IMG/VR virus record: IMGVR_UViG_3300033233_000126
Span: 1-30,530 of that record
Strand: one strand, 5' to 3'
Source of the DNA: a virus
Length of the DNA: 30,530 nucleotides
Shown: one piece after another, positions 3,001 to 18,148 of the stretch
Layout of the letters: each line of letters opens with the position of its first letter
How positions within the stretch are numbered: the stretch's first letter is position 1
Position numbers and translations under genes: made by a program
Notes under the pieces: generated by a model
What the model was told of the DNA's origin: nothing
The model's input: the letters and a program-made list of their open reading frames with translations, nothing else
Databases searched by the model: none

Positions 3001-5615
3001 GTAAAAATACCATTGTATCCAACATTATCTGTTCCTGCAGTATTAATTCCACTGGTTACTTTAGAAATTTTTACATTATCTCCAACTAACAATGCATGTG
3101 GTTTTTCTGTCCTGACAGTTGCAGTATTAGCACTCCAAGAAGCTGTTGCAATAATCTTAGTATTACGAAGTTGAGATGAATTTGTTAAAGATGATGTCGT
3201 ATCTTCTAAAACAGTTTTAGATTCCTGTAAAATAAAACCATCACTAGGAATTCTTGCAGAGGTAACTTCTTTTGGAATGACATATCTTACACGATAAATC
3301 CTATCAGATAAAGATCTACTATCTTGTTTTCTCTTAATATAAGTTGTTGGAGATTGCAAATTAATAGCAGTTACTCCAATTGAAATCATTCCACTACGAA
3401 TTCCATTAGTGGAAGTTGATTGCAAATACCATTTATTATTTGTAGAATCAAATTGAATTGGATGTCCAAATTCTCCTGGTTTTTTATCAGAAACTCTACT
3501 TACAATTCTTAATTTACCACCATTTGTTTGAATATTGTTAATAGTGATTGGAGATGAAGCAGTTGCATTGTTATAACTATCAGAAAGTTTAACTGATGTA
3601 GAACCAACACTTACAACATAGTAAAGAGTATTTGCAGATAATCCATCAGGAATATTTCCATCTTCTGCAAATAAAATAACTTTTTCTCCAGAAGTAAAAT
3701 TATGAGTCCCAGTTAAAACAATAGTTTCATTGGAATTAATTTGATTTGTAGATCCATTTCTATAAACATTGAAAGACTTCTCAAAAGATGTAGAAGTCGA
3801 TCCTTGCATTATAATTGGAGCAGAATAAGTTGTTACTGTTCCACTATTGTTTATGTTAATATAAACAATATCATTTTGTCTAGCACCAATTTTATATGAA
3901 TCTACATTGTGTGGTGGTAAAGTATCAGAATCAGTAAACCCATCCAAATAAAGTTTATCAGTGTATCCAACTCCAGCATTAATAATTGAAGATGAATCTA
4001 AACTCAACCAAGGAACATTCGTTTCATCAGATAAATTTTCTTTTGGTGGGACAATATGAGTGATATATCCTGCATCATCTTTATCAAAAGATTCAACTCT
4101 AAATCCTCCAGCTTTTAATGCAAGAGAACCAAAGTTTGAGTTGGAATTTGTAACAGATTGATCTCCACCAGTTTGAGTTACATATTGTTCTGCAAATCCA
4201 ATAGCAAAAACAGAAACTGCCTGAATAATTGCACCGTTAGAGGATTTAATATGGAAATTTGCATAATCAGGATTATATACAGAATCACTATCAGTATGTA
4301 AAGAAACAGATGATCCTAATTGTGTTTGAGTTTTATATGATCCACTATCATACTTTAAGAAAGCATTATCATCTTTTTGCAGAGAAACACCAGTAAACTG
4401 GGCAACAAGCATTGACTTGAATCCAGTTGCTTTGTTTCCATCAGCGTGCATACCACTCATTCCATATACTGATCTCAATGTACAATTGAGAATATATGGA
4501 GATGAAGAACTAACGCTATCAGCTTCGATCATCACTTTGGATGATCCAGTTGTTGGAATTAAAGTTGTTGGAATTGAACTTGCAGTATATTGGAATTGAT
4601 TTGTAGAGGTAATTCCAGAAACTACAAAAGATCCATTATAAATGGATGCATCCTGAGAAATGCCAGTGATTCGAATTGGACTATCAACTTGTAGATTATG
4701 AGTACTATTTGTAGTAACGGTAATTGTAGATGTTCCAGTTACTCCATTTCCAGAACGAATAGAGGAAATACCAAGATCGGTTGAAGATACTTCAGCAACA
4801 ATACGATATTCATCAATTTTAGGTTCAAAATCAGTGGTAGATGGGAAATCTCCAATTGATCTACCAGAATCTGAACCAAATGCCTGTGCAACTTTATAAT
4901 AATACATCTGCAGATCTGTGAGATCTGTAGTTCCTATTTTGTTGATACCATCAGCATATTCAAATGAAGTAAGTTTATGGTGAGAGAATAAAGGAGTAGA
5001 TTTAGTTGTTGTATAATCTTTATAACAAAATCCTTGAGGATTTGCATCAAACAATGTAAACTGAGAAAAATAACAAGCACCAGTGATTTTAAAGATTGCA
5101 GAACTTGAAATAGAACTATTTGTAGGATCAGGAACAAACAAAGGTCTTACCTTTGTTTTACGAAGATCCATACCAACAATTGAAGTTCCTCTTGGAATAA
5201 TTACACCACCAGAAGAACTATTAAAAGTATAAAGAATATTATTTGGATCAGAAAGATCAAAGTTTGAAGATTGAGTTAATCCTGTTGTAAGATATGAAGA
5301 TATAGTGTTTCCATTAATATCCTTATATACCGCAGATCCAGAGTTATTATATGCAGTATATCCAGGTCTGTTATCAATTGTATATTCACCAGGATAAACA
5401 ATAATTGTAGTCTTATCAAATTTATCGTTATTACTTCCAGTCAGATATGAGAATCTTGATGCTTCAATTAATGCTCTTTGAATTGATTTAAATGGCCTAG
5501 TCAAAGAGTTACCCTGATTCAAAATAGAATCAGATGCATCTAAATCGTTAGGATTTACATATAAAATATTGCCTTCAACGTTTTTGATGAAATTCTCTAA
5601 TCTGGTTAAGGCCAT
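1..5615 (-). CDS. giant virion fibre-like structural protein, C-terminus beyond window
   Basis: The reading frame is open from an ATG at 5615 to the left edge: 1871 codons in the window with no stop. The N-terminus begins MALTRLENFIKN and continues YVNPNDLDASDS, the hallmark of a very large structural protein of T4-like cyanophages. Residues 1 to about 150 include a TRPFKSIQRAL segment and a TIIVYPGEYTIDNRPG segment, then IPRGTSIVGMDLRKTKVRP, which looks like a right-handed beta-helix of the pectate-lyase type. The long middle is Ser/Thr/Gly/Val-rich beta structure. Towards the left edge come GVATVGF repeats and an FDLGSSSQSWRNLYVG motif of the kind seen in trimeric fibres. It is the last gene of the minus-strand structural block, 56 bases after the 793-codon gene, with an ATAAATA motif 34 bases upstream and no clear Shine-Dalgarno. 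Fibre or baseplate-peripheral role is inferred; host recognition is possible but not shown. Confidence 0.88.
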   Translation of the reverse strand, partial: MALTRLENFIKNVEGNILYVNPNDLDASDSILNQGNSLTRPFKSIQRALIEASRFSYLTGSNNDKFDKTTIIVYPGEYTIDNRPGYTAYNNSGSAVYKDINGNTISSYLTTGLTQSSNFDLSDPNNILYTFNSSSGGVIIPRGTSIVGMDLRKTKVRPLFVPDPTNSSISSSAIFKITGACYFSQFTLFDANPQGFCYKDYTTTKSTPLFSHHKLTSFEYADGINKIGTTDLTDLQMYYYKVAQAFGSDSGRSIGDFPSTTDFEPKIDEYRIVAEVSSTDLGISSIRSGNGVTGTSTITVTTNSTHNLQVDSPIRITGISQDASIYNGSFVVSGITSTNQFQYTASSIPTTLIPTTGSSKVMIEADSVSSSSPYILNCTLRSVYGMSGMHADGNKATGFKSMLVAQFTGVSLQKDDNAFLKYDSGSYKTQTQLGSSVSLHTDSDSVYNPDYANFHIKSSNGAIIQAVSVFAIGFAEQYVTQTGGDQSVTNSNSNFGSLALKAGGFRVESFDKDDAGYITHIVPPKENLSDETNVPWLSLDSSSIINAGVGYTDKLYLDGFTDSDTLPPHNVDSYKIGARQNDIVYININNSGTVTTYSAPIIMQGSTSTSFEKSFNVYRNGSTNQINSNETIVLTGTHNFTSGEKVILFAEDGNIPDGLSANTLYYVVSVGSTSVKLSDSYNNATASSPITINNIQTNGGKLRIVSRVSDKKPGEFGHPIQFDSTNNKWYLQSTSTNGIRSGMISIGVTAINLQSPTTYIKRKQDSRSLSDRIYRVRYVIPKEVTSARIPSDGFILQESKTVLEDTTSSLTNSSQLRNTKIIATASWSANTATVRTEKPHALLVGDNVKISKVTSGINTAGTDNVGYNGIFTVVSVPTTKTFTYALTTNPGTFTNIISTRDSNLPVVSRNKFNDIFSVYRTETIQAYSSLKRDGIYHLTLLKGSISPTASQFSSFKFNQPVRDLYPSQDRDNYNTDPEASKTVALNSSIGITLLNDTRNSPTKETVNDILKNTNIAIGVTSVVSTGTSATLYSTSAHRLNPAVSLTLVSGGTGYATTNRNVLLTNRTGEGLSINVTSVSSGAINGWEIVDGGSNYSVGTAVTAYGNGGGNASFTIASIRNDVGKIVQVTGIATTGYGGESNPYNGVFRITSIDGLKQFSYGISTTGGTYSSGGQFYISDNGIKITSIVYDSTSGIATVSTGSTAHGLFTYNRFNIVGTPQTQYNGSFIVDTKVGLTTVSAFIGKGLTLPSYSGNSYIAKNIISSYGQVTGSTDENIGNRLFPIYANQTTYTTATIAASATSVGVSTNVELKKGDYVQIDEEIVRIADDPTGSSISIIRGSLGTISASHSSGSEVKKIKVLPLELRRPSFIRSSNHTFEYMGFGPGNYSTALPQRQSKVLTKNDQLLAQKRSESGGVVVYTGMNSDGDFYIGNKRLSSNTAQEETLDAPIFEYYGEPITEQKLSAIFDDINVRDRIKVDGGSGNIVRSEFNGPVLFSNKTTSTSTIEAKSFLVKGNSDNASTITVGTQTPTSTGQGGDLVLQDSPSGGSFLGWVWTDSWKRFAPISTTRDSVDLFIDRLGIGVTQTPLKLQVNGDAQFGNVTLSNLYTAGVSTFVEPVNFQNVFVSTNLTVTNNLSVTSGITTLKQTGITTAYIGISSVGFSTITSGYIGVATVGFSTITSSFLNSTQIGVATVGFVTATNAIIGVATVGLQTVTTDLNVGRNFQVAGVSTFVGNVTFQGGTINLGDANTDNVVFTADVNSNVVPNTNNTFDLGSSSQSWRNLYVGFTSSTNISAGVITATTLNVTSLNVGVATVGFSTITSSFLNSTQIGVATVGFVTATNAIIGVATVGLQAVTTDLSVGGNFQVAGVST
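11..615. repeat. direct intragenic repeat, period 423 bp
   Basis: Positions 11-192 recur at 434-615 with an offset of exactly 423 bases (141 codons). The stretch 64-190 matches 487-613 without a mismatch (127 bases). It encodes a Val/Thr/Gly-rich fibre module inside the giant structural protein. The frame is kept, so unequal recombination would add or remove one 141-residue module. Confidence 0.9.
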
Positions 5616-10423: not shown

Positions 10424-12783
10424 TATTTACTTATACAATCAATAATAGAAATCTGTTTAACTGATTCTGGATCTTTCGGAGTAATTCCTTGATACTTGAG
10501 ACTTGGTTTTAAAATAGCACCAGATCCTGTTTTAGTATTTATTCTAATTTCTGGAAGATATCCGCAGAAGATTGCAGAAGCTGTAATTTCTGCTGCAATA
10601 ATTGAATTATTAGGACCTAAAACAAGATTAATTTTAACTTCTGGAACAAGATTTCCATCTCTATCATAAACACTTACTGTATCACTTGAAGAATAATTAT
10701 AACCAATTTTTTTCACAAGAATACCAGCAATAAATCCACACTTAGTTATTGGTCCTATTGGTTCAGGAGTTGGATTATCAATCTGAACACAAACTCCATT
10801 TCTACAAATATATCCTTCAGGACAATCTGAGTTATTAGTACATCTTGTACTACCGCCATCATTATCAAGATTGGTAACTTGAATATTAGCAGTTCTAGAG
10901 TTATAAATTGGTTGTCTAGAACTAGATACTGCCCTAATTGTATAAGTAATGTCACCATCAAAAATATTGTCATCAACTCCAGTAACAGTAACTGTTTGTT
11001 TGACGTTCCAATTAGTCCTAGTAAATGTAAGTTGAGATCTATCAATTCTTCCTTCTGTCAAATCTTGAACTGTAAGATTTACTATTACATCTCTGGTTGG
11101 TTGAGTCTTAAGACATACTTTAAATGTAGCAGTTCTTCCATTTTCTGCAGTATCTCCAGATAAATCTCCCATAAAAATTCCAGAGGAATTTCTAGTTCCA
11201 CCATCATGATAATCATCTCCAGGTTCATCTACTATGACATCAATTACTCCTCCATCACCAGGATCAATAATTGGAATTAATTCTCCACCATATCCACCAC
11301 AATTATCTTGAATAGAAATACTAGGTAAAGTAAGATATCCAAATCCACTATCAATCAAATTAACTCCAATAATTTGTCCATCGCTAACAATTGGTTCAGC
11401 ATAAGCACCAGAACCACCTCCACCAGTAATAGAAATACCAGTCTGACAATTTAAACTATTATCACAAGGTCCAAAATCTCTACCACCTAATTGATCAATT
11501 AAAGTATTAAAATCATCACCAAAGTTAAATGTCAATCCACCAGAAGCTGACCAAGTTGATGGGGTTGGACAATCAGAGTTACAATTGGTAATCAAATTTA
11601 AAGCAAGTCCTGCATATCCAAGAGCTTGACTTAGTATGTTAGTTACACTTCCTAAAGCTCCACCAAAAACTGAATTAATATCCTCTAATAGTGGAGTAAG
11701 ATTTTTTCCAATAAAATCATTAACTGCAATAAATATATCATCTAAAAAATTATCTAATGTACATTGAACAATATCAAATAAATTATCCAATAAATCAGTT
11801 AAAAGTTGTTTAATTATATCAAACAAATATTGAAGAAGTTGTTCGAGTAAACAAAAAATTAAATCTAATATGGTTTTTGTGGTTTGTCCAAGAACTGGTT
11901 GTTGAGATTTTGGAAATAAAGATGCCAAAAGTGGAGCAATTGCTTTTCCAATTTGAGCCATCAAATAATCTCTAAGTTTGGCTATTTGCCCACTTACTAC
12001 CCCAAGAATTAATTTGGTAAATCTTAAAATTTCATCATCAAGATTTACAAGTTCATTTAAAATAGGATCAACATAAGAATCTAGAAAAAATTGAATTTGT
12101 TTCATACGATTCATGAAATCAACCAAGATGGTTTGAATTCTTGAAATATCGTTATTTTGACAAGGATTTGGAGGAGTTACAGTTACATTTGAAAGTAATG
12201 CGTGTGCCGCTAATGCTTTTGTAGGATTTAATGGAATTCCTGGTGGTTGTTGAGTTGGTGTTGCAGGAGTAGAAGATTCACCTGTTGCAACATTAGTTCC
12301 ACCAGAAGAATCCGTCTTTTCTGAAAGATGATTTTGTTCAGTATCTGGTAAACTCTTTTTTCCAGAAAATCTATTAAATGTTGCATCTTCACCTTCTGCA
12401 AAGGTTTCATCAGTCTGATCTCTTTGTCTATAAAAAGCACCAAAAATTATTGGTTGTTGACAATCATCTCCATCAGCAAAAAATCCTAATACACTTTCTC
12501 CACCTTGAATATCATGACTTTCTGCAATATTGTTAACTCCAGTGCCTTGTCCAAGAGGAACTAACACATGAGCAAAAGGTAAATCTTGATCTGCTAATTT
12601 ATTTCTGCTTGGATGATATCCTAATATTCTAACTTTAACTCGATAATATTGACAATCTTCTTTTTCTACAAGAGTAGCAGCTCTGGACCATCCACTAGAT
12701 TCTGGATCAGCAACTTGTCCAATCCACCATTTAAATCCATCTCTGCCTAAAAAATTACTTTGAAAAAAAGACTGTTCAATCAT
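10423..12783 (-). CDS. 5: gp5-like baseplate hub protein, OB-fold, no lysozyme domain seen
   Basis: This 786-aa protein starts with an OB-fold-like hub domain (about 1-120; GRDGFKWWIGQV, then RVKVRILGYHP, AHVLVPLGQG and ESVLGFFADGDDCQQPIIFG) typical of T4 gp5 and VgrG-type spike proteins. T4 gp5 next has a lysozyme domain. Here a Pro/Thr linker (about 140-205) leads to roughly 190 residues (212-400) of Leu/Ile-rich amphipathic helix. Then come one GxGY repeat (about 465-495), a Calx-beta-like segment (about 540-640), a short Cys-rich module with the C-x5-C-x5-C-x4-C pattern (648-665), and a beta-rich C-terminus. It is translated after the 73-aa gene, overlapping it by 8 bases. The hub assignment is firm from the N-terminus and the context; the roles of the inserted modules are unknown. 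Confidence 0.8.
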   Translation of the reverse strand: MIEQSFFQSNFLGRDGFKWWIGQVADPESSGWSRAATLVEKEDCQYYRVKVRILGYHPSRNKLADQDLPFAHVLVPLGQGTGVNNIAESHDIQGGESVLGFFADGDDCQQPIIFGAFYRQRDQTDETFAEGEDATFNRFSGKKSLPDTEQNHLSEKTDSSGGTNVATGESSTPATPTQQPPGIPLNPTKALAAHALLSNVTVTPPNPCQNNDISRIQTILVDFMNRMKQIQFFLDSYVDPILNELVNLDDEILRFTKLILGVVSGQIAKLRDYLMAQIGKAIAPLLASLFPKSQQPVLGQTTKTILDLIFCLLEQLLQYLFDIIKQLLTDLLDNLFDIVQCTLDNFLDDIFIAVNDFIGKNLTPLLEDINSVFGGALGSVTNILSQALGYAGLALNLITNCNSDCPTPSTWSASGGLTFNFGDDFNTLIDQLGGRDFGPCDNSLNCQTGISITGGGGSGAYAEPIVSDGQIIGVNLIDSGFGYLTLPSISIQDNCGGYGGELIPIIDPGDGGVIDVIVDEPGDDYHDGGTRNSSGIFMGDLSGDTAENGRTATFKVCLKTQPTRDVIVNLTVQDLTEGRIDRSQLTFTRTNWNVKQTVTVTGVDDNIFDGDITYTIRAVSSSRQPIYNSRTANIQVTNLDNDGGSTRCTNNSDCPEGYICRNGVCVQIDNPTPEPIGPITKCGFIAGILVKKIGYNYSSSDTVSVYDRDGNLVPEVKINLVLGPNNSIIAAEITASAIFCGYLPEIRINTKTGSGAILKPSLKYQGITPKDPESVKQISIIDCISK

Positions 12784-12997
12784 CGTATATTCTACACTCT
12801 AATGCTTCTGGATTTTCATCACAATATAATTCTAATGGGGATGGATCATGATCATCTGTTGGATGATTATTCTTATATCTTTCTAATTGTTCAACTTCAT
12901 CTTCCAAATGACGACGACGTTGACTATTAACAATGGGATTATCTAGTTCTATTAGATCATCAGTAATATGTTGATCTATTGTTTTCTTTTGTTCCAT
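12776..12997 (-). CDS. small acidic cyanophage-type protein between hub genes
   Basis: The product is 73 aa from the ATG at 12997, starting MEQKKTIDQHITDDLIE. The stop of the upstream hub gene is one base away (TAATATG), which favours this start over the in-frame ATG at 13027, which would overlap the hub gene. A central charged helix (SQRRRHLEDEVEQLERY) is followed by NHPTDDHDPSPLELYC and an ECRIYDD C-terminus. Proteins with this layout recur beside hub genes in T4-like cyanophages, but I know of no function. The position between gp27-like and gp5-like genes suggests hub assembly. Confidence 0.75.
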   Translation of the reverse strand: MEQKKTIDQHITDDLIELDNPIVNSQRRRHLEDEVEQLERYKNNHPTDDHDPSPLELYCDENPEALECRIYDD

Positions 12998-12998
12998 A

Positions 12999-14273
12999 TT
13001 ATGTATTAGATATTGAATAGGAATCACTAACTAATTCAAGACTACTAAAATTATTATCACCTTGAATAGTATGACGTATTTTTGATATCATATATCTTTG
13101 ATCTACTAAACTTTGATCAACTTTAGATTGTGGATTTCCTTTTTGTGCTTTAGCAATTTGCAATTTAACCACATCACCAGCACATAAAGTAATATTATAA
13201 GGAAGAGTAATCTTTGTGGTAGTTGTAAATAACAAATTATATCTCATATAAGAATTAGCTTGATATTTAGCTAACTGTTCATCAGGAACTACATTTCCAT
13301 CTTTATCCATTACTCCAGGATCTAAAAGTCTATACATTAATCTAGATGGATAATCTTCAAGACCATTTAATGTAGGTGTTTCTGATGATTCATATGATGG
13401 AGTTAAACCACCGTCATTATATTTAGTAGACAATTTTGATATTATAACATCATATTTCATTGTTTTCATATTTAAGAAAATTGAGTTATGTGCATATCCA
13501 CCCATTCTTAAAGTTTTCAAAACATCATTACCTTCTGTAACGTTAATATCAGAAAAAGTTTTATAATAATCCGAAGATGAATTAGGAACTGGAATTTGAC
13601 TTTGAACTAAAGTTACTGGATTTGTTGCATCTTCAAAAGTTTTATCAATACTTTTAAAGCAATATCCCTTTCTATTTTCATAAAAAAGAAATCCTGCTGA
13701 TCCAGATTCATCAGATCCTCCAGATGAAAGAGTTGAGGGAACAGATTTGGGACATAACCAGTTAATAATATCAAAAGGCCTTTTATAACAACCAATAAAA
13801 GAATATGAATTATTTGTTGATTCGACAAATAATTCTTTTTGTGTTCCAATTAAATCATTATCAGTAAGAATGTTTTCAACAGATGAAGAAATACTTGCAT
13901 CATATCTATTCACAACTCTTGTAGTTTCATTTGCAAGTATTTCTACACTAACCAATCTAAAACTATAAAGATTGACATTATTATCTGGAAGAATACGCAT
14001 ATTCACAATGCACAATGGGTTATTATCATCAACAGTAAAGGAAATTGTTTCTAAATCTTCATATGTTGCTTCTACTTTTAAATTGAAATATTCTCCACCC
14101 AAGATTGGTAGATCTGCAATTGCACCATCACCATCAATCACAACAACATCAAAAATTACAGTAGGGGATGTAATATCTTCATAGTAATCCAAAGACACAA
14201 ATCCACGACTAATATCGACTAATTTATCTGCAGTTTGTATTGAAAGAGTTTTGACTTTAAAATTTTGGGACAT
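12999..14273 (-). CDS. gp27-like baseplate hub protein
   Basis: The 424-aa protein begins with beta-rich sequence (KVKTLSIQTADKLVDISRGF) and contains RPFDIINWLCPKSVP (about 162-176), then AGFLFYENRKGYCFKSID, a pattern shared by T4 gp27/gpD-type hub proteins. The C-terminal third is again beta-rich (ITLCAGDVVKLQI, DQRYMISKIRHTI). It lies between the M23 peptidase gene and the gp5-like gene; in T4, gp27 forms the trimeric torus that carries gp5. The assignment rests on this position and the fold-like sequence pattern; direct identity with T4 gp27 is likely low. The ATG at 14273 lies next to the M23 gene stop. Confidence 0.68.
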   Translation of the reverse strand: MSQNFKVKTLSIQTADKLVDISRGFVSLDYYEDITSPTVIFDVVVIDGDGAIADLPILGGEYFNLKVEATYEDLETISFTVDDNNPLCIVNMRILPDNNVNLYSFRLVSVEILANETTRVVNRYDASISSSVENILTDNDLIGTQKELFVESTNNSYSFIGCYKRPFDIINWLCPKSVPSTLSSGGSDESGSAGFLFYENRKGYCFKSIDKTFEDATNPVTLVQSQIPVPNSSSDYYKTFSDINVTEGNDVLKTLRMGGYAHNSIFLNMKTMKYDVIISKLSTKYNDGGLTPSYESSETPTLNGLEDYPSRLMYRLLDPGVMDKDGNVVPDEQLAKYQANSYMRYNLLFTTTTKITLPYNITLCAGDVVKLQIAKAQKGNPQSKVDQSLVDQRYMISKIRHTIQGDNNFSSLELVSDSYSISNT

Positions 14274-15355
14274 TATACTACACTATTAAATTGAAGTATT
14301 GATAGGAAATCAGTAGATTTTTGAGATGAAGATTGATCACTATTACTAGAAATTGGTATCATTTGATTTTTACCAGAAGGTGATTGAATCATAGAAATTT
14401 CTTTAGATTCCTTAGTTTTATATTCAGATTTCAATGAAGAAGGATCTGTTTTATTTACACTTGTAGTTAATTGACTTGGAGTTGCTTTTGTTTTTACTTT
14501 TCCTCCAGCACGAACATAAGAATCAATATAAGATGTTGGATTCATATGTCCAGTAATTACACCCTTCCATCCACTTCCCAACTCAAAATGCAAATGAGGC
14601 CCAGTTACATGTCCAGTACTTCCTACTGTTCCAATTACTGTTGCTGATCCAGATTTATTTTCAATCTTATCTCCATTTTTAACATTTAACGAATTCATAT
14701 GCCCATATAGAGAATAGGTTCCATCATCATGTTGAATTACAACATGATTTCCCCATCCACTTCCACCATCTCCAGTTGAAACAATAACTTTTCCTGGTTT
14801 AATTACTGAGATTGGAGCTCCAGATTGCCATGGGCCTCCAGCAACGTCAATACCTTTATGTTCTCTACCTCTCCATTCTTGATATCCATATCCAGATGTT
14901 ATGTATGGACTCGCTTTTGCACCACCTTCAGCTTCCATTCCTGGAGAAACAGATCCCAAAACTGATCCCATTGTACCTAAAACTGCACCACCACCCAAAG
15001 CAGCAAGAATAGTTTTTTTATCTAATTTACTTAAAAATTTTGTTGCTAAATCATTTTCTTCTTGTAAGTCTTCAATTTTTTGACTTAAAGTCTTAATAAT
15101 ACTTTGTTGATATAAATTTTTATTTTGAAGATCTTGAACTGCTTGAATCATATCTGGAGAAACTTCTCCATTTTTTGATGATTTAGAACTATTATTTCCA
15201 ATACTGGATAAAATATCTTTCAATTCTTGATTGTTTTTATTTTCAGATTGAAGAAATTTTTTAATAAATCTCTGATTATTTGTAATCGTTTTTTTAATAA
15301 CAGGATTTAATTTTTCTACTTTTCTTGATAATTTAACGATTGTTTCTGAAGACAT
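14273..15355 (-). CDS. virion-associated M23 (LytM-type) peptidase
   Basis: This 360-aa protein has an N-terminal coiled coil (about 1-110, IVKLSRKVEKLNPVIKK onward), a small hydrophobic Gly-rich segment (about 115-140) and an M23 metallopeptidase domain (about 152-280). The zinc ligands are visible: HKGID gives H166 and D170, and HLHFE gives H256, with H254 as the general catalytic His; YGHM (H219) also fits. M23 enzymes cut peptide cross-links in peptidoglycan. The C-terminus is low-complexity Ser/Lys/Gln. It is the second of two adjacent cell-wall-active genes, followed by the gp27-like gene. I infer a baseplate-hub or tail-tip enzyme that opens the cell wall during infection rather than a lysis endolysin, because no holin or signal peptide is nearby. 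Confidence 0.85.
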   Translation of the reverse strand: MSSETIVKLSRKVEKLNPVIKKTITNNQRFIKKFLQSENKNNQELKDILSSIGNNSSKSSKNGEVSPDMIQAVQDLQNKNLYQQSIIKTLSQKIEDLQEENDLATKFLSKLDKKTILAALGGGAVLGTMGSVLGSVSPGMEAEGGAKASPYITSGYGYQEWRGREHKGIDVAGGPWQSGAPISVIKPGKVIVSTGDGGSGWGNHVVIQHDDGTYSLYGHMNSLNVKNGDKIENKSGSATVIGTVGSTGHVTGPHLHFELGSGWKGVITGHMNPTSYIDSYVRAGGKVKTKATPSQLTTSVNKTDPSSLKSEYKTKESKEISMIQSPSGKNQMIPISSNSDQSSSQKSTDFLSILQFNSVV

Positions 15356-15361
15356 ATTACG

Positions 15362-16528
15362 TTACCCCATGTTTGAAATGCCCATACTAAATCGGGCTAT
15401 TTCAGATAACCAATGCCCAGATCCTGGTGGAGCAGTTGCTGATGTTGAACTTCTAGCAGCAACTGAAGTTTGTTTGGAAATTGCAGAATTTGGAGAAATA
15501 CTAACAGAAGAAACTAATTCTTGTGTATTTTGTGATGGAACTATTCCAGAAGCTAGTTTAGATGAATTATTTACCTTAATAACTTGTGCATCAGATGATT
15601 GAGATGATTGTGGATTTGATGAAATAGATGATGATTGAGATGATTGTGGATTTGATGAAATAGATGATGATTGAGATGATTGTGGATTTGATGAAGTTTT
15701 TGTTACAGATTTTTGAGTTTTAAGTTTTTCTACTGCTTTTTGTGCTTGAGGTAAATATTGTTTATATGTACCAGATTTATAAACACTCCAAGCACTAAAA
15801 CCCTGACGTTTTTTTACTTTTTTTGCAGCATTAATATTTGTTGCTGGATCAAGTAATTGTTCGTTACTATTAATTCCAAATTGTTTTCTTCTTTCTGGGC
15901 CTAATTTATCAATCATATTGATTTGCCACAATCCATAAGAAAGATCATTCGTCTTAGGATTATCATTTATTTTACTTGAAACTCCACCAGATTCTGCCAT
16001 AGCAATTGCAGCCATAGTTGCAGAATCTTCATCATTAAATCCTGCACTTTTTGCAAGAGATACTAACTTTTCGGTTCCTAAACTACCACTAGGAACTGAA
16101 CCTGAAGGAACTTCTGGATCAGTTCCAGTACTAGATAATAATCCAGCAATTGTTGCTGTTAAACCACCAGCTGCAGCTCCACCAAGTAAACTCATGTTTG
16201 GAATAGTATTACTAGATTGTAAAGCTCCAACTGGTGCTGGAGTAATATCTGACAATGAAGAATCTCCAACGCCACCAATTCCAATTTCAGCTAATTTTTT
16301 CTTTGATTGAATTTCGGTAATATAAGTGTCTAAAATTTTGTTTTCTTGTTGTTGTCCAAAAATAATATTTTTAGAAAAATTACCAAGTTCTGAACTCAAT
16401 CTAATAATACTTGAACCAAGAATTTGAAAATTTGAATCTAATCTAGCATCAGCCCTATCTCTCTGATTATTACTTGCAAGAATAGATGCAGTATCAGTAT
16501 TAAAAAAAGATTTAGGTGAAATTGACAT
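15362..16528 (-). CDS. virion-associated lysozyme-like/lytic transglycosylase protein
   Basis: This 388-aa protein has a helical N-terminus (about 1-80), a hydrophobic Gly-rich segment (111-133), and a lysozyme-like domain (about 152-262). The domain shows AIAMAESGG with probable catalytic E179, SYGLWQIN (198-204) and a final AWSVYKSGTYKQYL, as in SLT-type enzymes that cut the glycan strand. A low-complexity linker with a 12-residue unit (SSNPQSSQSS core) in three copies follows. The C-terminus ends GSGHWLSEIARFS. Its ATG overlaps the stop of the gp26 frameshift extension (TAATG). This gene directly follows the tail-assembly-chaperone-like pair, the place where many phages encode the tape measure. 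I see no long tape measure here. Confidence 0.8.
   Translation of the reverse strand: MSISPKSFFNTDTASILASNNQRDRADARLDSNFQILGSSIIRLSSELGNFSKNIIFGQQQENKILDTYITEIQSKKKLAEIGIGGVGDSSLSDITPAPVGALQSSNTIPNMSLLGGAAAGGLTATIAGLLSSTGTDPEVPSGSVPSGSLGTEKLVSLAKSAGFNDEDSATMAAIAMAESGGVSSKINDNPKTNDLSYGLWQINMIDKLGPERRKQFGINSNEQLLDPATNINAAKKVKKRQGFSAWSVYKSGTYKQYLPQAQKAVEKLKTQKSVTKTSSNPQSSQSSSISSNPQSSQSSSISSNPQSSQSSDAQVIKVNNSSKLASGIVPSQNTQELVSSVSISPNSAISKQTSVAARSSTSATAPPGSGHWLSEIARFSMGISNMG
15591..15698. repeat. 36-bp tandem repeat, three copies
   Basis: Three consecutive 36-base units (15591-15626, 15627-15662, 15663-15698) differ only in the first codon of the first copy and the last codon of the third. They encode three 12-residue Ser/Gln/Asn/Pro units in the linker of the lysozyme-like protein. 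The unit length keeps the frame, so copy number can vary without breaking the gene. Confidence 0.92.
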
Positions 16529-16706
16529 TACTGTTGTTGTTTTTGTTTTTGTTCTTCAAGGTATTCTTTCAACAACTCAAGATAGATTTCTCTTTCCCAA
16601 GGCAACATATTTTCAACTTCTGTTAATGAATATTTATGGTATTGCATGAGATTGAAATTTACCCGAAAGTAATTTTCTAATGTATCTCTTGCAATACTTA
16701 AGCGAA
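16528..16706 (-). CDS. -1 frameshift extension of gp26 (tail assembly chaperone-like, gp51 position)
   Basis: The space between the gp26 stop and the lysozyme-like gene is open in the -1 frame relative to gp26. After a slip on TTTTTTC the reading continues CGC TTA AGT ATT GCA and runs 58 residues to TAA at 16530-16528, overlapping the next ATG (TAATG). The extension contains ARDTLENYFRVNFNL, then SLTEVENMLPWEREIYLELL, then a charged Glu/Lys/Gln tail. The fusion would be 297 aa. An in-frame ATG at MQYHKYS could give a separate 39-aa protein, but I see no good ribosome binding site. T4 has two hub-assembly proteins, gp26 and gp51; many other tailed phages make their tail assembly chaperones as a short form and a -1 frameshifted long form. 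Family assignment is inferred. Confidence 0.75.
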
Positions 16707-17420
16707 AAAATCAGATAACCCTTCCAAAACTATAAAATTATCATTTTCAGTATTTGGATTCTTAATTGTTGTTTCATAACGAAGTTTTGGCATTGTCGCA
16801 AAGAATTTTTCAATATCTTTATATTGTTGTGGTGTCAATCGTTCTAAGAATTTAAGAAGATCTTCCTCAGAATAATCTTGTGCAGCCCAACAATTTTCAC
16901 CATCAATTACCATCTCCATACAAGAAGAAATAATTTTAAAAGATAACTCAAGAAGATCTTCTTTACTATTTTTATTAAAGTTATCTTTTACAAATCTTTC
17001 AAAAGAAGGATATTTCATTCTCATGATCATTTTGTCACTCAATTGAATATCTCTATTGTGATCCTCACTTGTTTTAACTTCTATTTCATCAATATAAATT
17101 GTCAAAGGAACTTCAGTTTTGCCATCATCACCACAAGTGATAATGAGATCAATAGACTCACCAATGGATTTTCCTCTAATGTTTAAAAATAGGTATTCAA
17201 TATCAAAAATTGGAAGTTCATTTACTTTAATTCCTTTTGTAATAATGCAGTTTTCAAGAACATCAATAATTGCATTATTAATTTGAGTAATATCTTCAGA
17301 TTCCATTGCAAGAAGAAGAATTTTTTCTTCTTTAACTAAAAATGGACGATACTTAATTTTTTTATTATTTGAAGGCAAAACCAATTCATAAGTTGGTGTA
17401 GAAATAACAGGTAATGTCAT
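16698..17420 (-). CDS. 26: gp26-like baseplate hub assembly protein
   Basis: The 240-aa protein matches the T4 gp26 type (PF12322-like). It opens with short beta strands (STPTYELVLPSNNKKIKYRP, then FLVKEEKILLLA) and has IKVNELPIFDIEYLFLNIR in the middle. KMIMRMKYPSFERF and a C-terminal helix set (EEDLLKFLERLTPQQYKDIE) follow. In T4, gp26 is needed for assembly of the hub. The stop comes one codon after a slippery TTTTTTC, so this is probably the short form of a frameshift pair. Its ATG overlaps the gp54 stop by four bases (17417-17420), indicating coupled translation. Confidence 0.85.
   Translation of the reverse strand: MTLPVISTPTYELVLPSNNKKIKYRPFLVKEEKILLLAMESEDITQINNAIIDVLENCIITKGIKVNELPIFDIEYLFLNIRGKSIGESIDLIITCGDDGKTEVPLTIYIDEIEVKTSEDHNRDIQLSDKMIMRMKYPSFERFVKDNFNKNSKEDLLELSFKIISSCMEMVIDGENCWAAQDYSEEDLLKFLERLTPQQYKDIEKFFATMPKLRYETTIKNPNTENDNFIVLEGLSDFFA
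16704..16725 (-). promoter_or_regulatory. programmed -1 ribosomal frameshift signal
   Basis: The heptamer T TTT TTC (16710-16704) sits in the right phase (GAT TTT TTC) for tandem -1 slippage. GGAAGGG (16725-16719) lies 8 bases upstream and could act as an internal Shine-Dalgarno stimulator, as AGGGAG does in E. coli dnaX. The zero-frame stop TAA follows after one codon (GCT). Downstream an imperfect stem (AAGTA with TACTT) is possible but weak. Confidence 0.75.
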
Positions 17421-18148
17421 AGATTATTAAAAACAGCTCTTGGTTTATTTCTAGTTATATATCTTTGATAAGCCATGGTTACAGAAATAGTCAATTTATC
17501 AGATGTTCCATAAGATACTTTCATTGGAGAAATGATGATAGGAAAAGCATCAACAAATTCATAGGAAAGATAATCACTTGCAGTTTGATTATATCCAACA
17601 TCCTTTTCAAATTTTGTAATTAGAAAATTAAATCTATATGATTTTGGGTATCTCATTCTAGTCACGTTATTTGAATTTAACGGTGATTTAGAAAGATTCT
17701 GTCCATTATTCGTAGAATCTACCTTTCCAACTGAAGAAACTAAAGGATTCATAAAGTTCATCCATTCTTCAAAAAAACGAATAACTTTATGTTCAGTATC
17801 AACATAAAAATTTAAAGTTATTTGTCTACCAAAATCTCTAGTTGATGGAAAAATTTCAAATTGCCCTTGACGATCTCCAACAACTTGATACATATCAAAA
17901 GCAGATCCAGGTAAACTTGTATTGAAACATAACAATTCAAGTTTTTCTTTAAATTGACCATCTGATGTCAATCCCAATACTCCAGCATCCTTAAGATGTT
18001 GCATTAGAGTATAAGAAGAAATTGATCTATCATTTGGAGGATCATCAAATGTTACTTTAAATTCTGGCGTTAAAGATATTTTTGAAAAAATATTTTTAAC
18101 ACTGTCAATACTATATCTAAGTTTTCCTGGGCTCCTTTCTAAAGACAT
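17417..18148 (-). CDS. 54: baseplate tail-tube initiator gp54
   Basis: The 243-aa protein begins MSLERSPGKLRYSIDSVKNI and shows FKVTFDDPP, then LLCFNTSLPGSAFD and GDRQGQFEIFPSTRDF, then FFEEWMNFMNPL, the pattern of the gp54 protein of T4-like cyanophages. It shares the tail-tube-like beta fold of gp19-type proteins. In T4, gp54 works with gp48 at the top of the baseplate to start polymerisation of the tail tube. It is shorter than T4 gp54 (about 320 aa). It is the first gene of the minus-strand hub operon, divergent from gp4. A TATAAAA sequence about 13 bases upstream of the ATG is a possible late promoter. Confidence 0.8.
   Translation of the reverse strand: MSLERSPGKLRYSIDSVKNIFSKISLTPEFKVTFDDPPNDRSISSYTLMQHLKDAGVLGLTSDGQFKEKLELLCFNTSLPGSAFDMYQVVGDRQGQFEIFPSTRDFGRQITLNFYVDTEHKVIRFFEEWMNFMNPLVSSVGKVDSTNNGQNLSKSPLNSNNVTRMRYPKSYRFNFLITKFEKDVGYNQTASDYLSYEFVDAFPIIISPMKVSYGTSDKLTISVTMAYQRYITRNKPRAVFNNL

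Follow-up and report, generated by a model that had tools for sequence, protein, structure and literature searches.

A probable programmed −1 frameshift joining gp26 to a gp51-like extension in a T4-like phage

The stretch of DNA analysed here, an IMG/VR virus record of 30,530 bases (hereafter the window) from a cyanophage-like relative of T4, carries on its minus strand a gp26 gene whose last codons hold a slippery heptamer and whose −1 frame continues into a gp51-like extension. We posit that programmed −1 frameshifting at this site makes both the gp26 short form and a 297-aa gp51-like long form, a reading that sequence comparisons lead us to hold with a probability of about 0.93. We infer both the slippage and its partial efficiency: most ribosomes would stop at the zero-frame TAA and release the 240-aa short form (gp26, TAC-N), whereas some would pause on TTT TTC, where a Shine-Dalgarno (SD)-like GGAAGGG paired to 16S rRNA would help, together with a stem-loop on the 3′ side. 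Re-pairing one base back would take the two Phe-tRNAs from UUU-UUC to UUU-UUU, and the slipped ribosomes would then continue to the end of the −1 frame, yielding the long form (TAC-NC) with its gp51-like C-terminal domain.

Frameshifting tail assembly chaperones of T4-like phages have already been published (Vladimirov, Gautam & Davidson 2022, doi 10.1016/j.virol.2021.11.003, as represented in PMC12846349 and PMC10885494). To the extent that the citing literature conveys that study, poly-T slippery signals were described in T4-like TAC-N genes, and one of the citing papers (PMC10885494) refers to it for T4-like phages in which the short and long forms are two genes. The window resembles the published systems in its gp26-family TAC-N, its 3′ poly-T slippery sequence and its −1 frame C-terminal extension, and its cassette is a well-supported further instance, independently reached, of this known system; new detail may lie in the stem-loops that differ between clades and in the constrained SD-like motif, both set out below.

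The junction cassette in the window

The cassette is present in the sequence (Table 1), and the preliminary description of this DNA had drawn its parts correctly. On the minus strand the 3′ end of gp26 reads GAA GGG TTA TCT GAT TTT TTC GCT TAA. The heptamer thus sits at the very end of the gene in what had been called the right phase, its first T occupying the third codon position, which is the phase required for a −1 tandem slip; GGAAGGG lies upstream across the 8-nt gap that had been claimed, and the zero-frame stop comes one codon after TTT TTC, as had been said. In the −1 frame a TGA directly precedes TTT TTT, so that the opening of this frame coincides with the heptamer; entry would be possible only there or from a later start, and the first ATG, GTG or TTG stands 21 codons in. 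The frame continues for the 58 further codons described earlier, to a TAA (16530-16528) that overlaps the next ATG (16528-16526) as TAATG. Translation across the slip gives a product of 297 aa with the junction DFFRLSIAR, matching the size and junction peptide given beforehand, and the hole of 169 bases that an annotation without frameshift logic was said to leave is indeed 169 nt between the annotated genes. The N-terminal domain belongs to the gp26 family by its Pfam match. The extension matches phrog_634, “baseplate hub assembly catalyst”, that is, gp51 (E = 3.9e-25), and would constitute the gp51-like C-terminal domain of the long form.

Table 1. Features of the gp26 junction and its immediate neighbours in the window
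Feature	Coordinates	Strand	Basis
Upstream neighbour, tail tube protein	17417..18148	−	phrog_45, E = 2.8e-25; PF23849, E = 1e-8
gp26 short form, TAC-N-like protein, 240 aa	16698..17420	−	Pfam T4_baseplate PF12322, E = 7.4e-65; phrog_150, E = 6e-68
GGAAGGG, Shine-Dalgarno-like element, 8 nt 5′ of heptamer	16719..16725	−	sequence; codon constraint in relatives
Slippery heptamer T_TTT_TTC	16704..16710	−	sequence; invariant poly-T in all relatives examined; synonymous constraint
Zero-frame stop TAA of short form, within heptamer-stem spacer	16698..16700	−	sequence
Stem-loop, 6 nt after heptamer, GUAUUGCA.GAGAU / AUCUC.UGCAAUAC	16639..16697	−	folding energy, shuffles, recoding, clade pairing
−1 frame extension FFRLSIAR...QQQ, 60 aa including FF, with TAA stop	16528..16710	−	phrog_634, dN/dS, T4 gp51 alignment
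Downstream neighbour, 388-aa protein with transglycosylase domain; ATG overlaps extension stop	15362..16528	−	PF18896, E = 2.9e-16

By itself TTTTTTC is common in a window of 32.5% GC (22 occurrences against 27 expected). Of 7,416 codon positions, two have it in the required phase, and among 29 genes only gp26 has it in phase near a gene end. The chance that the −1 frame would stay open for 57 codons is about 1%.

Conservation of the site and selection on the extension

The expectation that relatives would share the heptamer and the open frame at this junction was borne out across 79 readable related IMG/VR metagenomic loci and the isolates S-PM2 and ACG-2014b. An in-phase poly-T heptamer is present in all 79 loci and in both isolates, as TTTTTTC or, in three, TTTTTTT; its distance from the stop is two or three codons, or four in a single locus, and a −1 frame of 171-189 nt follows it in every locus whose contig reaches the end of the frame. 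Besides cyanophages, the slippery site and −1 frame are also conserved in phages of Vibrio, Aeromonas, Caulobacter, Sinorhizobium and others. In 46 representatives less than 90% identical, codon choice around the site is constrained beyond what the protein asks for. All have T as the last base of the codon that precedes Phe-Phe, whether this stands for Asp, Ser, Ala or Asn; the first Phe codon is TTT in 46/46, and the second is TTC in 44 although TTT makes up 76% of the background. Relatives carry GAGGG or GAAGGG 5′ of the heptamer; most representatives use GAG for the upstream Glu (background 27%), and those with GAA invariably follow it with GGG for Gly (background 8%). Multiplying these codon usages naively yields very small values, but since the loci are related rather than independent the products are descriptive and not a probability.

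For the extension itself the median dN/dS is 0.18-0.20 when read in the −1 frame, whereas the remaining frames give 1.0 and 2.9, values that point to purifying selection on a sequence evolving as protein in the −1 frame only. Selection of this strength speaks against a decaying remnant, and recurrence of the same arrangement in about 80 contigs and many isolates speaks against a sequencing or assembly error that broke a single fused ORF. Poly-T runs are error-prone, and the record of Stenotrophomonas phage IME-SM1 is one base short relative to near-identical relatives, yet we find an error or a remnant scarcely credible as the explanation of the frame break. The IME-SM1 record (KR560069) is an observation in its own right: around 4718-4726 it is one base shorter than all 14 other near-identical records, a T having probably been lost from its slippery run by homopolymer error, with gp26 there running about 28 codons too far. 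An apparent +1/−2 frameshift in this phage was set aside on the same comparison.

A different account is implicit in most cyanophage annotations, in which gp51 is a small downstream gene in its own right, with its own start and possibly translationally coupled to the gp26 stop. Many cyanophages do carry, five codons into the frame and immediately beyond the gp26 stop, an ATG from which the gene is annotated, S-PM2 gp51 being one case (at 1216 in our S-PM2 locus, L002; compare P-SSM4). Among relatives, however, the position of the extension's start codon is not conserved and the heptamer is: the Met used elsewhere as the gp51 start is missing from the window's own clade, and in that clade, in loci L012 and L016 and in ACG-2014b, Ile or Leu codons replace the ATG where the heptamer persists. 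A separate gene would, moreover, leave the synonymous constraint on the heptamer and the upstream motif unexplained, and it sits poorly with T4 gp51, in which the same C-terminus is fused to a gp26 domain. We therefore regard independent initiation of gp51 as very improbable and favor the programmed frameshift.

In tblastn searches gp26 was found in 884 phage records and the extension in 553, mostly of cyanophages; in nearly all records listed, the extension match starts with the first Phe, overlapping the gp26 end by about 10 nt. No joined gp26-extension feature is annotated in the records opened, where the extension is called gp51 or a short hypothetical protein or is left blank. On the frameshift reading, what hundreds of public phage records show behind gp26 as a gap or as a small ORF would be the C-terminal part of a longer protein. 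The closest annotated relative of the window is Synechococcus phage DSL-LC02 from Dishui Lake (L085, 1-24720), which has the same gene order and a gp26 69% identical; in its annotation a hypothetical protein of 40 aa stands for the gp51 extension.

The downstream stem-loop and the composition of the proposed signal

Signals for −1 frameshifting are usually laid out as a heptamer, a spacer of 5-6 nt and a stem, and an SD-like element upstream is the dnaX-like part of such a signal. The window has all of these in the manner of E. coli dnaX, with an SD-like element, a slippery heptamer and a downstream stem-loop, although dnaX is an unrelated gene and protein, and its heptamer is A AAA AAG. The window stem-loop has a folding energy of −18.5 kcal/mol (z = −4.3 against dinucleotide shuffles), and the structure remains strong when compared with synonymous recoding that preserves the protein and the phage's own codon use (z = −3.15); over the 46 representatives the recoding control gives a median z of −2.6, with 35 below −2. 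The window's stem is kept in its nearest clade (98.9% of cells paired), where it hardly varies and covariation thus says little. The main other clade has instead an 11-bp hairpin, GUAUGGCUCA/UGAGUCAUAC, with a 9-nt loop and 5 nt after the heptamer, and S-PM2 has a third, different stem at the downstream site. Strong structure is also found there in Vibrio phage ValKK3 (z = −4.0), Aeromonas phage Ah1 (−6.4) and Caulobacter phage Cr30 (−3.9); it is weak in several relatives (L001, L018, L082) and does not exceed the control in Det7, Bue1, D493 and BX-1. In a covariation count on 33 sequences that uses the majority stem, paired cells make up 77.7%, compared with 73.2% for shuffles, and an Rfam search for a known frameshift element gave nothing above gathering scores. 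The stem-loop is likely a stimulator of slippage.

We lean, by a modest degree, toward a broader picture in which the T4-like signal is three-part (SD-like element, U UUU UUC and stem-loop) in marine and freshwater phages. The stem would have been rebuilt clade by clade with different partners as the overlapping protein stayed constrained, selection would act on the balance between the two chaperone forms, short and long, and Kuttervirus and some other groups would keep the extension without the canonical heptamer. In Kuttervirus and other Ackermannviridae (L092, L102, L105-L119) the −1 frame extension at the gp26 end is conserved, DFHLIFEIDLLSYF..., and no XXXYYYZ heptamer occurs at that gp26 end, which has only ATTTTC before ATT TAA; the two loci tested for downstream structure show none beyond control. 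If these phages frameshift, the slip would be non-canonical.

T4 gp26 and gp51 and a probable chaperone role

Comparison with T4 reveals the same two-part architecture. T4 gp26 matches the PF12322 family over its whole length; T4 gp51 (249 aa) matches PF12322 over residues 1-201 (E = 4e-52), and its C-terminus (200-247) matches the extension profile from the first Phe pair, so that gp51 consists of a gp26-like domain plus the extension, with the junction at the same place as in the window. The preliminary description had proposed comparing the extension with T4 gp51, and had put forward the idea that a single protein, in a short and a long form, provides the gp26 and gp51 functions here; this architecture supports that idea. 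Judged by homology, the window's short form corresponds to gp26 and its long form, PF12322 domain plus extension, to gp51, which supports the view that T4 gp26 and gp51, whose roles have long been unclear, are the short and long forms of a chaperone. In T4 these forms are separate genes on opposite strands, with no frameshift, whereas the window phage would make both from one gene. Frameshifting is reportedly conserved in several T4-like groups, T4 itself using genes 26 and 51. Straboviridae hold both solutions, with the frameshift arrangement in ValKK3 and Ah1 and two genes in T4 and IME13, and relatives of T4 gp51 over at least 80% of its length number 1,334 records in the phages collection. 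Cyanophage and marine vibriophage gp51 proteins have been described without the first ~200 residues (Sullivan et al. 2010, PMC3037559); in cyanophages these would be missing because they are gp26, joined to the extension by the frameshift.

The fold predicted for gp26 is suggestive of a tail assembly chaperone. In an AlphaFold2 model (mean pLDDT 85), residues 1-86 are matched best by 2ob9, the tail assembly chaperone of HK97 (Z 7.8, rmsd 3.8, 84 aligned), followed by rbstp2171 (3fgx, 7.8) and YqbN (3klu, 7.4) before a drop to 5.0; Z values under 8 are suggestive only, as common arrangements also occur at this level. The Foldseek match of the model has an E that is not significant, the gp26 profile finds no relative by sequence among solved structures, and no NCBIfam family exceeds its cut-off.

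By analogy, the two forms probably act like lambda gpG/gpGT, chaperoning tape measure or hub assembly. On one side the gene order is lambda-like: the chaperone gene directly follows the tail tube gene, the lambda G/GT-type position. On the other, where the preliminary description had placed the tape measure of lambda G/GT-type systems, no recognisable tape measure gene lies directly downstream, and the next genes, for proteins of 388 aa and 360 aa, carry muralytic domains. The window differs from lambda in this respect and in its heptamer, TTTTTTC; that of lambda G/GT is GGGAAAG. It could be that slippage is real but that the long form, unlike lambda gpGT, serves baseplate hub assembly only, with no link to a tape measure. 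This possibility, which we consider unlikely though worth keeping in mind, draws on the listing of T4 gp26 and gp51 as hub assembly chaperones, gp51 being absent from the virion (PMC3004832), as well as on the lack of a recognisable tape measure gene directly downstream; the G/GT-like genetic logic, the tail tube gene directly upstream and the HK97 chaperone-like N-domain argue the other way, and the T4 hub includes the tape measure gp29 (PMC3004832), so the two roles may be one. We continue to favor a G/GT-like pair of chaperones.

Several features of the neighbourhood deserve mention. Two mid-sized genes follow the chaperone gene (14273-16528, minus strand), encoding the transglycosylase-domain protein of 388 aa and a 360-aa protein with an M23 peptidase domain, neither of which resembles a complete tape measure; the proteins encoded at this place in S-PM2 are 1167 and 749 aa long (phrog_5453). 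The larger cyanophage neighbours give weak tape-measure-like matches, and when the large S-PM2 proteins are used as tape measure guides for the window only the M23 domain matches clearly. Within the transglycosylase-domain gene, at 15594-15695, lies a perfect 36-bp tandem repeat of 2.8 copies that encodes a Ser/Gln-rich 12-aa repeat. Finally, between a tail protein gene and a gp5-like hub gene the window encodes a CP12-domain protein (PF02672, E = 9e-15; 12776-13027, minus strand); CP12 is a regulator of carbon metabolism and points to a cyanobacterial host.
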